The notes beneath the pieces were generated by a model. That model made no database searches, was not told the DNA's origin, and saw only the letters and a program-made list of their open reading frames with translations. This document shows, in pieces, positions 4,687 to 60,086 of a DNA stretch of 64,000 nt (its first letter is position 1; the number at the start of each line of letters is the position of its first letter). A program made the position numbers and the translations under genes. This DNA comes from Candidatus Bathyarchaeota archaeon (GTDB taxonomy: Archaea; Thermoproteota; Bathyarchaeia; Bathyarchaeales; Bathycorpusculaceae): positions 124,001-188,000 of the forward strand of contig JAOZIA010000005.1 in assembly GCA_026014585.1 (NCBI GenBank), in the 5' to 3' direction.

Positions 4687-5832
4687 TTAAATTGTTGGTG
4701 GCGTGGGCGGGATTGTGTCGGGTTCTTTTTTGCGTGTGAAAATGAGACTGGTTGACTTTACGATTTGTGGAATACCGACCAAGTCCTCAAAAATTAGCAA
4801 ACCCCGGGCTAATAGGGCAAATACGCCTGCGGGTCCTGCAGCTATGCCTAAAAGACCCAGAATTCCGATGATTCCGAATTCTTGCACTCCAGCACCTGCG
4901 GGGGTTATTGGAACAAATGCTAAAGCTGTTACTAACGGGTGTATTAAGAAGAATGCAAGCCAAGGAATTTGAGTCATGCCTAATGCTAAGCCTAAGAACC
5001 ACCATTCAAAGCCTTTCAAAAGCCAACAGGCAAAGGTTAGAAGGATTATTTCAGGTATGGCTTTGCTGGTGCTTTGGGAGCTTTCTTTGTATTCTTCGAG
5101 TTTTCCCAGTAGACCGCCTGTGAATCTTTTTAGGTATCTGGAGTTGGCGATTTTGTCAAATATTGATATGGCTCGTTTTGACCAAGTGAAGAGGGCAAGC
5201 ACAATTGCGCCTGCAAGCATCATGGCGATGCCTAGTCCTGCAATGATCAGTCCAAGGTTTATTCCTGCAACAGTTTGGGGAAATAGTTGGTTCCAAGTTG
5301 CTGCTGGAACAAAGGTGACAAGATAAAGCACTGCACCTACTCCGCCTATTACTTTAACCAGAAATTCTATTGTTTGAATCCCTAAAATGGTTGAGAGTCC
5401 TTTTGATGCGGGCACACCTTGGTCTCTTAGGTAGACGGGGGTTAGAATGTAGCCTGACCGTCCGGGTGTTACATCACTTGTTAACATTCCTGCAAACTGT
5501 GCCTGCAAGGTTTTGCCAAAAGTTGTTTTGACACCTGCTTTGCTTAGGACACGTTGCAATCTTACTGTGAAGAGCAGGTTAATTCCAAAGTACATAAGAA
5601 AAGCAAGGGCTAAAAATTCTATTTTTATGGTTAATATGGTTGTGTAGAGGTAATCTACACCTCTAATAATGGTAGGTTCATCGGGGTGAAAATCAGCTGG
5701 AACAGTTGTTCCTACATACCAAAGTAAAGCTATGAAAATGGCAATCATTGCCACAACTTGAAGTAGAATTTTAAGAATTCTTTTTGAAGACCCCTGCGAT
5801 TTCGTTTGAGGTAAAGGTTGTAGCTCGGACAT
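4687..5832 (-). CDS. UPF0104 / LPG-synthase-like integral membrane protein
   Basis: 381 residues with about eight hydrophobic helices, the first at ~25-43. The segment TPGRSGYILTPVYLRDQGVP matches the signature loop of the lysylphosphatidylglycerol synthase transmembrane region family (UPF0104, YbhN/AglD-like). Members act in polar-lipid or lipid-linked sugar flipping; which applies here is not known. The C-terminus LPITPAGAGVQEFG-like stretch (here PITPAGAGVQEFGIIG) is also diagnostic. Starts at ATG 5832 with a short cytoplasmic N-terminus rich in Ser/Lys. Probably precedes the GNAT gene at 4168 in one transcript. Confidence 0.8.
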   Translation of the reverse strand: MSELQPLPQTKSQGSSKRILKILLQVVAMIAIFIALLWYVGTTVPADFHPDEPTIIRGVDYLYTTILTIKIEFLALAFLMYFGINLLFTVRLQRVLSKAGVKTTFGKTLQAQFAGMLTSDVTPGRSGYILTPVYLRDQGVPASKGLSTILGIQTIEFLVKVIGGVGAVLYLVTFVPAATWNQLFPQTVAGINLGLIIAGLGIAMMLAGAIVLALFTWSKRAISIFDKIANSRYLKRFTGGLLGKLEEYKESSQSTSKAIPEIILLTFACWLLKGFEWWFLGLALGMTQIPWLAFFLIHPLVTALAFVPITPAGAGVQEFGIIGILGLLGIAAGPAGVFALLARGLLIFEDLVGIPQIVKSTSLIFTRKKEPDTIPPTPPTI

Positions 5833-6091: not shown

Positions 6092-6175
6092 TGGTTATCT
6101 GTTCTTTATTGTGGTTTATCAGAGGCTTATTTAACTTACCTTTTTGTTAGTGTTTATTTCGTTTTGGAAAGTTAG

Positions 6176-6233: not shown

Positions 6234-8303
6234 ATGGAAAAACAGAAAATTTCATCCAAAATCAGTTTATCCTCACTTCGTAACAGTATTTCTTTAGCTG
6301 TAGCAGTCAAGTTTTCTGCAATTGCGGCGGCAGTGATAGTTTTTTACCTTCAGGATTTAGGGTTCATCTTTAATAATGCATTAAGTGATGAATCCTCAAC
6401 ACACCTGCTAATAATTCCATTCATGTTTCTCTACATTCTTTACAGAAAAAGAAAAGTGCTGCTGGCATCGGTAAACCAGACGCACCGCGAAGGTTTAGGC
6501 AACATATTTGACACAGCAATAGGTGCCTTGCTGTGTGCAACTTCGGTTTTGATTTACTGGTATGGCTCCTATACCTTCACACCCATAGAGTACCATATGT
6601 TCACGCTTCCAATATTCACCACAGGCTTAACCCTGCTATTCTTTAACAGGCACACTCTGCGGCATCTTGTGGTTCCAATTCTCTTCCTGTTCTTCCTCAC
6701 ACCACCACCTACCGAAATCCTTTATGGAGCAGGTTCAGCGCTTTCTGTTGTCAGTGCTATAGTGGCAAACGGCGTCACTAACTTGGTAGGTATAGCAACA
6801 AATTTTTCTGCCAGTCAGTATGGAAGCCCATTAATTTCTATGGTAACACCCAGCGGAGAAAGCTTGACGTTTAGTGTAGATATTGCTTGTTCAGGAATTT
6901 ACAGTTTAATTGGTTTTGTCGTGTTTTCAGCTTTCATAGCATACATCATAAGGGAAAGCCCAACAAGAAAATTAGTCACACTACTTATGGGCATACCGCT
7001 TATTGTTGCCTTAAACATTTTCAGAATAACTGCACTGTTAATTATTGGCTATAACTTTGGCGATGAAGTTGCCCTACAAGTTTTCCACACAGTAGGCGGA
7101 ACAGTGCTAATGTTTATTGGCACAATAATTTTGTTTGGAATCACAGAGAAAATCTTCAAAAAACGAGCCATCCCAGCAGGTTGCCTAACATGCGAACAGA
7201 CCCCAGTTACCCCGCCACATGGCTTTTGTGACAACTGCGGGAAACTGTTAAGTTATCCTAAAGAAAAACTGAAAAAGGTTGACTTAGTGAAAATTATTTC
7301 AGTCATCTTTATCGTGATTGTACTTGTTTCTATCCAGTCACCTGTCTTTGCATTAACAAATGTGGGGGCAGAATTAACGGTTCAGACACCTTCAGGAGAG
7401 CAGGGCAACTCAGAAATTCTCCCCCAAATTGAGGGTTATACATTGAATTTTCTTAAACGCGACACCGCCTTTGAAGCAACTGCAGGCCAAGATGCATCCT
7501 TGATTTATGTTTACACGCCCATTAACCCTGGCAACGGCTCGAATCCTCAAATTTGGGTTACCATAGAAGTTGCCACAGCCGTCAGTTCGCTTCACCGCTG
7601 GGAAACATGCCTTGTTAATTACCCGATTAGTCAAGGTTACAAGCCAAGCGTTACTCAGTTAGATTTAAGAGATGTACAAATAAATGATAACCCACCAGTT
7701 TTGGCGCGGTATTTCTCTTTCCAAGATAACACTGACGACCTAACCCAAGTGGTTCTGTACTGGTACCAAACAGGAACCTTTTCACAGAACGGAACAAGCA
7801 TCTCTCAAAACGTGAAAATTAGCTTAATTTTGTACCCAAGCAGCCCAGCACTTGTTCAGGCAGCGGAGGATGCTCTTTTGCCAGTTGCGGTTACAGTTAA
7901 CAGTTACTGGGAACCCATTAAAAGCTGGGCAACTTTCTCTATAATTATTTCTCAAAACGGATTAACGCTGTCAATTGTGTGCCTTGCTTTGCTTGTAGCT
8001 TTGATAGCCTACAAACTGTTATTTATTGACCGGGCGCAGCGGGAATTGCTTAAGAACTTGTATGGTAAAATCCCAGAAAAAGACCGATTCCTACTACAAA
8101 TAATCAACAAAACAAAAGGCAACTTTACACTGGCAACACTATCAGAAGAACTACAAAAAAGCGCAGGAACACCCGTACCAGAAGATTGGTTAAAACAGGA
8201 ACTTGAGCAGGCAGAACAGGCAGGTTTCATCGAGAAAATAATCGTTAACAAAAATGATGTGCCGATAATCAAATGGAGAATTAACCTGAAATTAACTACT
8301 TAA
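6234..8303 (+). CDS. Archaeosortase/exosortase with zinc ribbon, EpsI-like region and winged helix
   Basis: 689 residues from ATG 6234 (the frame is open from 6144). In numbering from 6144, ~50-335 is a polytopic membrane domain with the exosortase-family residues: Cys249 in ACSGIYSL, Arg294 in NIFRITALL and His315 in FHTVGG. This family cleaves C-terminal sorting signals and transfers surface proteins to an acceptor. A zinc ribbon follows (C347, C350, C362, C365), then a membrane segment near 385-402. An extracellular region with ETCLVNYPISQGY-type sequence resembles EpsI-like exosortase partners. A last membrane helix (~605-628) leads to a ~75-residue charged tail resembling a winged helix. 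The order is unusual; family membership is well supported, while the tail assignment is inference. Confidence 0.85.
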   Translation: MEKQKISSKISLSSLRNSISLAVAVKFSAIAAAVIVFYLQDLGFIFNNALSDESSTHLLIIPFMFLYILYRKRKVLLASVNQTHREGLGNIFDTAIGALLCATSVLIYWYGSYTFTPIEYHMFTLPIFTTGLTLLFFNRHTLRHLVVPILFLFFLTPPPTEILYGAGSALSVVSAIVANGVTNLVGIATNFSASQYGSPLISMVTPSGESLTFSVDIACSGIYSLIGFVVFSAFIAYIIRESPTRKLVTLLMGIPLIVALNIFRITALLIIGYNFGDEVALQVFHTVGGTVLMFIGTIILFGITEKIFKKRAIPAGCLTCEQTPVTPPHGFCDNCGKLLSYPKEKLKKVDLVKIISVIFIVIVLVSIQSPVFALTNVGAELTVQTPSGEQGNSEILPQIEGYTLNFLKRDTAFEATAGQDASLIYVYTPINPGNGSNPQIWVTIEVATAVSSLHRWETCLVNYPISQGYKPSVTQLDLRDVQINDNPPVLARYFSFQDNTDDLTQVVLYWYQTGTFSQNGTSISQNVKISLILYPSSPALVQAAEDALLPVAVTVNSYWEPIKSWATFSIIISQNGLTLSIVCLALLVALIAYKLLFIDRAQRELLKNLYGKIPEKDRFLLQIINKTKGNFTLATLSEELQKSAGTPVPEDWLKQELEQAEQAGFIEKIIVNKNDVPIIKWRINLKLTT

Positions 8304-59468: not shown

Positions 59469-60086
59469 TTAGGAAACTTTAGCTGCAAGATACTCACGGT
59501 AACCAGCAACAAACGCAAAAGCCAACGTTAAAAACAGCATACAAACAGTTAATGACTCTAAGCGTATGCCCCAAGGGGAATAATTCAAAACTAAAGCAAC
59601 CAACGGCGCAAGACACAAACTTGAAGCCAAACTTAAAGCAACACGCTCAATTTTGTTCTCTGACGTGATTTTTATGGGGATTTTTGTGTCTGCGGGAAAC
59701 ATTGCCTTTATGAAAACGTACCCAGGAAGGAACGCCAAAAAAATTAAACCTAAAACATATCGGGTATAAGCCACCGCTAAAATGTTAGCTGGAAGGAAAA
59801 AAACCAGTGCAGCCACGGTTGATAAAACAATAGAGAACCAAAACCATAAAGCACACCTAGAAAGCAGGTAGTCTTTAATTGAAAAAAATCGTTGTGCCTT
59901 GCCTTTCACAAAAGAGACCGTCTCATCCGCTTCCAACTCAATCAAAGCTGCAGCTACTTGCTCCTTTGACAGGAAATAACGTGTTTGCATAATGTCGACT
60001 AACTGCTCAACATTTTCAGGCTGCTCTGATGCTATTATTTGAGCTATGAGAGCCTTAGTCTGATCATTTGTGACGGCCATACTCAA
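59469..60086 (-). CDS. DUF1616-family membrane protein with winged-helix N-terminus
   Basis: 205 residues. Residues ~7-70 (KALIAQIIASEQPENVEQLVD, then KEQVAAALIELEADETVSF) look like a winged helix. Four helices follow with FLAFLPGYVFIKAMFPA and RVALSLASSLCLAPLVALVLNYSPWGIR, the DUF1616 signature. Found in archaeal surface-glycan and sortase areas; biochemical role unknown. Six bases after the small gene at 60093. Confidence 0.75.
   Translation of the reverse strand: MSMAVTNDQTKALIAQIIASEQPENVEQLVDIMQTRYFLSKEQVAAALIELEADETVSFVKGKAQRFFSIKDYLLSRCALWFWFSIVLSTVAALVFFLPANILAVAYTRYVLGLIFLAFLPGYVFIKAMFPADTKIPIKITSENKIERVALSLASSLCLAPLVALVLNYSPWGIRLESLTVCMLFLTLAFAFVAGYREYLAAKVS

Follow-up and report, generated by a model that had tools for sequence, protein, structure and literature searches.

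An exosortase of the Bathyarchaeia fused to a zinc ribbon, EpsI-like domain and winged-helix tail, and its likely VPE-tagged substrates

Archaeosortases are known in pairs with C-terminal sorting signals, such as ArtA with PGF-CTERM and ArtC with PEF-CTERM. Archaeosortase A mediates lipid anchoring in haloarchaea (PMC7157517). Fusions of EpsH and EpsI have been described (Haft et al. 2006, PMC1569441), and PEP-CTERM genes have separate regulators, PrsK, PrsR and PrsT (PMC1569441).

The protein analysed here is encoded in a window of 64,000 nucleotides from a Candidatus Bathyarchaeota archaeon (contig JAOZIA010000005.1, positions 124,001 to 188,000). Its family resembles the bacterial EpsH-type exosortases with EpsI (XrtA, XrtB, XrtV, XrtD; TIGR02602, PF09721, TIGR02914) in the core fold with Cys, Arg and His, in an EpsI-like domain directly downstream of the core, in a glycan gene neighbourhood and in tripartite C-terminal tags with a Pro-Glu motif. 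It differs from them in being archaeal, in having a winged-helix tail and, between the core and the EpsI-like part, a zinc ribbon, in a tag of the form VPE[Y/S/L/V]xxG and not PEP, and in missing all named subfamily cut-offs. Like archaeosortases A to F, it consists of archaeal membrane sortases of the TIGR04178 signature family, but the core scores much more weakly against these (archaeosortase C, E 2.4e-5; ArtF, 1.2e-6) than against bacterial exosortases (XrtA, 1.2e-22; XrtV, 2.7e-21). PrsK, PrsR and PrsT tie regulation to a tag-sorting system, but as separate proteins that are not fused to the sortase. The exosortases of about 550 residues found in other Thermoproteota (loci L094-L097) share the core and a downstream HxWxxC domain, while lacking both the zinc ribbon and the winged-helix tail.

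The gene is a single open reading frame of 689 amino acids without internal stops. The longest frame opens with TTG at 6144, and the ATG at 6234 is favoured by the homologues. Its features, in window positions, are as follows.

6234..8303, forward strand: whole gene, with exosortase core, zinc ribbon, EpsI-like domain and winged-helix tail; conserved end to end in relatives
6327..7145, forward strand: exosortase (EpsH) core, residues 32-304; PF09721 E 1.6e-36, TIGR04178
6888..6890, forward strand: codon of Cys219 (motif ACSG), predicted catalytic from the homologue alignment and by analogy with exosortases
7023..7025, forward strand: codon of Arg264 (motif FRIT), predicted catalytic from the alignment
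7086..7088, forward strand: codon of His285 (motif FHTVGG), predicted catalytic; invariant in the 19-row alignment, Glu in one copy (L105)
7182..7238, forward strand: cytoplasmic zinc ribbon CxxC-x11-CxxC, residues 317-335; zinc binding predicted from two CxxC knuckles
7275..7334, forward strand: membrane pass after the zinc ribbon, residues 348-367; AlphaFold helix, hydropathy peak 345-379
7437..7910, forward strand: EpsI-like extracytoplasmic domain, residues 402-559; sub-threshold PF11984, invariant motifs
7959..8033, forward strand: last membrane pass, within helix 576-612; AlphaFold model, hydropathy peak 566-602
8070..8300, forward strand: cytoplasmic winged-helix tail, residues 613-689 (HHHEE, 615-683); two AlphaFold models, Foldseek, weak Pfam matches in relatives

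This architecture recurs at full length in relatives and is therefore neither a product of chance nor a fusion artefact. A frameshift fusion of two genes, named as a possible objection in the preliminary description, is ruled out by the open frame and by the conservation of the full architecture across families: the fusion protein is real and widely conserved. A survey of related sortases for the same tail showed that about 40 of the 257 Bathyarchaeia genomes have the long, complete form, which a few other Thermoproteota share. A scan of genome contigs returned one locus, in Candidatus Bathyarchaeota A05DMB-I-11. Contig 21 of the genome under study encodes another long copy (C21), and contig 2 a short exosortase-like protein.

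The full-length AlphaFold model, made with 19 relatives (pLDDT 79, pTM 0.80), consists of the core helices, a helix at 348-367, an alpha/beta domain at 402-559, a helix at 576-612 and the HHHEE tail. Together with the alignment, it bears out the domain order first read from the sequence: core, zinc ribbon, membrane pass, outer domain and tail. A structure search with the full model gave no strong match in the PDB (best E 0.009). Because the chain is rich in Lys and Arg before the first of the last two passes, rich in Asp and Glu between them and again rich in Lys and Arg after the second, the zinc ribbon and the tail are placed inside and the alpha/beta domain outside. The cysteines of the ribbon (C317, C320, C332 and C335) are invariant in the 19-row alignment, which agrees with the cytoplasmic zinc ribbon of the preliminary description; a few divergent copies retain three of the four, and zinc-ribbon Pfam matches are weak and occur in many family members.

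With 126.4 bits against a PF09721 cut-off of 25.7, the core belongs to the exosortase/archaeosortase superfamily, and it reaches 72.4 bits (cut-off 23) with TIGR04178, the general NCBIfam signature. The best named NCBIfam models are the bacterial exosortases XrtA, XrtV and XrtD, with archaeosortases weaker. None of the cut-offs of the named NCBIfam exosortase/archaeosortase subfamilies is reached (XrtA 80.6 of 208 bits, ArtC 24.3 of 100), and these cut-offs exclude a named archaeosortase as its identity. Of the initial label "archaeosortase", the superfamily stands and the named archaeosortase does not; by its scores, the core seems closer to the EpsH-type exosortases of bacteria than to any of the named archaeosortases. 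The three catalytic residues that had been recognized, Cys, Arg and His, are present as C219, R264 and H285 and are conserved in the alignment. The copy with Glu in place of the predicted catalytic His285 (FELFGG) is a second sortase of its genome (L105; G106 contig 11, 7661-9745, reverse strand). The subfamily is apparently undescribed: a literature search that reached only a minority of the subscription papers found neither an archaeal exosortase described as carrying both a zinc ribbon and a winged-helix tail nor any account of the VPE[Y/S/L/V]xxG tag.

The name "EpsI-like" for the outer domain is supported by its motifs, HxxExC followed by YW, with a weak assignment by sequence models. Both lie C-terminal to the exosortase; H454, W456, E457 and C459, and Y509-W510, are invariant in the 19-row alignment and can be compared with HRPEVC and YW of bacterial EpsI. 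PF11984 matches below threshold in three or four family members (best E 4e-4 to 5e-5). Its sole match in the own genome is the domain of the C21 paralogue (E 4.9e-5, 23.2 of 26.1 bits), and at E<=0.001 it finds only two proteins across the 257 genomes, both members of this sortase family. TIGR02914 was missed with 14.2 of 42.8 bits. An hhalign comparison with bacterial EpsI gave E 0.17 with the motifs matching, and when three bacterial EpsI proteins were compared directly, the HMM scores were no higher than for shuffled sequences. A candidate stand-alone EpsI-tail gene in another genome (G119) is interrupted by a run of N and could not be read. The fused domain, with its HxWExC motif, probably aids recognition or transfer.

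Three sequences from two lineages (L090, L092 and L104, the last being the other sortase copy in the genome of L105) have Ser for Cys219, and in all three the EpsI-like Cys459 is Ser as well (Fisher p 8e-4; with two close relatives counted once, about 7e-3). Two further sequences (L091, L202) have Ser459 alone. The paired changes suggest that the two outer sites cooperate, or that outward cysteines are avoided at both.

At most family loci, secreted proteins encoded beside the sortase end in VPE[Y/S/L/V]-x-x-G, a hydrophobic stretch and Lys/Arg. Of the 184 genes that lie at most three genes from the sortase, 25 carry the tag, versus none of 241 further out (p 3e-10), and 19 of 37 loci have a tagged secreted gene within this distance. 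A search of the own genome for C-terminal sorting signals, with a profile built from 21 tags (A5), found nine proteins at E<=0.008, and a tenth, weaker candidate was recognized by eye; there are further matches in two other genomes (G007 and G145). In all 43 matches checked in three genomes, at most 19 residues separate the end of the match from the C-terminus, and nearly all the proteins have an N-terminal signal-like segment. The consensus by eye in the own genome, G007 and G145 is VPEYxxGALxALxACFAAFxxFKK. Many tags (G007, G145, G000; loci L155-L199) have a conserved Cys inside the hydrophobic part (ACFAAF). The NCBIfam sorting-signal models matched none of twenty tagged proteins or tails, and PEF-CTERM was rejected as the tag, its search in the own genome giving only sub-threshold matches.

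As in PEP-CTERM-like systems, this tripartite tag on secreted proteins co-occurs with the sortase. Class-wide, tags are present in 36 of 40 genomes with the long sortase versus 17 of 217 without (Fisher p about 2e-26); since the profile comes partly from genomes later tested, the contributing genomes were also left out, which gives 19 of 23 versus 17 of 217 (p 8e-15). These tests treat related genomes as independent, which is answered in part by the comparison within the genus, with tags in eight of eight genomes with the long sortase versus two of 23 without (p 6e-6). Eleven genomes have tags at E<1e-5 although no full-length sortase was detected in them, and four others have the sortase but no tag match; these count against the pairing, and many are draft assemblies. 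The VPE-tagged secreted proteins are likely the substrate class of the long sortase, and new here. It seems rather unlikely that the enzyme sorts other proteins, with the VPE-tagged ones serving a different protease or sortase of like distribution: the tag-bearing genomes without a detected long sortase and the short exosortase-like protein in the own genome would fit this, but most genus genomes without the long enzyme, some of them with a short one, have no tags, and the tagged genes adjoin the long sortase.

The tail of about 75 residues had been credited with helix-turn-helix character, and it adopts the HHHEE order of a winged-helix fold whether modelled alone or within the full protein, with moderate confidence (mean pLDDT 66.5 for the isolated tail and about 80 within the full model). 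The best Foldseek matches of the tail alone are mostly winged-helix DNA-binding proteins (probability about 1.0, TM 0.5-0.67, best E 0.017), among them PadR/LmrR, Fur, YodB, RosR and Cdc6/Orc1 (E about 0.02), and not an unrelated fold. Winged-helix HMMs give weak Pfam matches in single relatives (HTH_12 1.6e-5, Cdc6_C 2.9e-4). Thus a winged-helix fold is supported.

A fold of this kind invites the explanation that the tail is a membrane-tethered transcription factor controlling substrate or glycan genes, with a signal from the outer EpsI-like domain or from sorting flux crossing the membrane, ToxR-like with the domain order reversed. The structural matches to DNA-binding proteins, the order outside-membrane-inside, a basic wing and a basic juxtamembrane stretch, and the retention of the tail in a derivative without catalytic core are all in line with it. 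Against it, the helix that would recognize DNA is acidic (net -4 here; mean of the family -1.2) in a domain that is neutral as a whole; the tail is poorly conserved, with 18-34% identity to the window protein versus up to 50% in the EpsI-like part; and a weak test, the search for an operator motif upstream of 43 substrate genes, found in common only a ribosome-binding-site-like word and A-rich dyads. DNA binding by the tail, though conceivable, and the coupling of sorting to regulation suggested in the preliminary description are left unsupported by these results, and such a transcription factor appears fairly improbable. The related idea of one membrane protein that sorts surface proteins outside, while its tail tunes gene expression by sorting flux or surface state, is distinctly unlikely. 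Because the helix is acidic and the substrate genes have no operator in common, docking in the cytoplasm is the more likely role of the tail, a preference based on exclusion and on the gene neighbourhood.

In relatives, the sortase gene is clustered with genes for c1, DUF1616 proteins, a polysaccharide flippase, glycosyltransferases, epimerases and small secreted tagged proteins. The two-pass membrane protein c1, for which no family was matched in Pfam or the PDB, lies beside the sortase at 22 loci, and the DUF1616 family is found nearby in about 10 relatives. The window copy stands alone, with none of these partners adjoining, which counts against the reading preferred below; c1 and DUF1616 are beside the paralogue on another contig. 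Conversely, the derivative without the catalytic region (L098; G192, 6300-7931, reverse strand) has kept the zinc ribbon, the tail and an adjoining c1 gene, and this counts for docking. Elsewhere in the window, positions 59469-60086 (reverse strand) encode a DUF1616 membrane protein (PF07760 E 5e-25) with a helix-turn-helix-like N-terminus; its neighbours are genes for methyltransferases and a polysaccharide pyruvyl transferase. A lysylphosphatidylglycerol synthase-like membrane protein (PF03706) is encoded upstream of the sortase, on the reverse strand (4687-5832).

We consider it probable, at about 0.6, that the protein is a bathyarchaeal exosortase for VPE-tagged proteins, with cytoplasmic parts for assembly. 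An N-terminal signal would export the substrate, and the tag, VPE[Y/S/L/V]xxG followed by a hydrophobic stretch and Lys/Arg, would hold it in the membrane. Cys219, with Arg264 and His285 at the outer face, may then cut at the VPE motif or close to it, and the cut protein would be handed to an acceptor, a lipid or a glycan, to give a released or anchored surface protein. The EpsI-like domain outside would assist recognition or transfer, and the zinc ribbon and winged-helix tail could dock the enzyme to c1, to the DUF1616 protein with its own helix-turn-helix-like N-terminus and to the neighbouring glycan machinery. The least likely explanation is that C21 is the working enzyme and that the copy in the window, a redundant paralogue, drifts with no distinct function: this copy is isolated in its surroundings and, in a quick tree, lies outside the other copies of the genus, with a longer branch (0.73) and no genus orthologue among the sampled sequences, but its catalytic, zinc, EpsI-motif and tail positions are all intact and its frame is open.

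The natural fusions, the catalytically deleted derivative and the parallel Cys-to-Ser changes in sortase and EpsI-like sites offer three handles on the function of EpsI. With an archaeal exosortase subfamily, a predicted cognate tag and candidate partners, the surface proteome of the Bathyarchaeia, an abundant and mostly uncultured archaeal class, becomes predictable.
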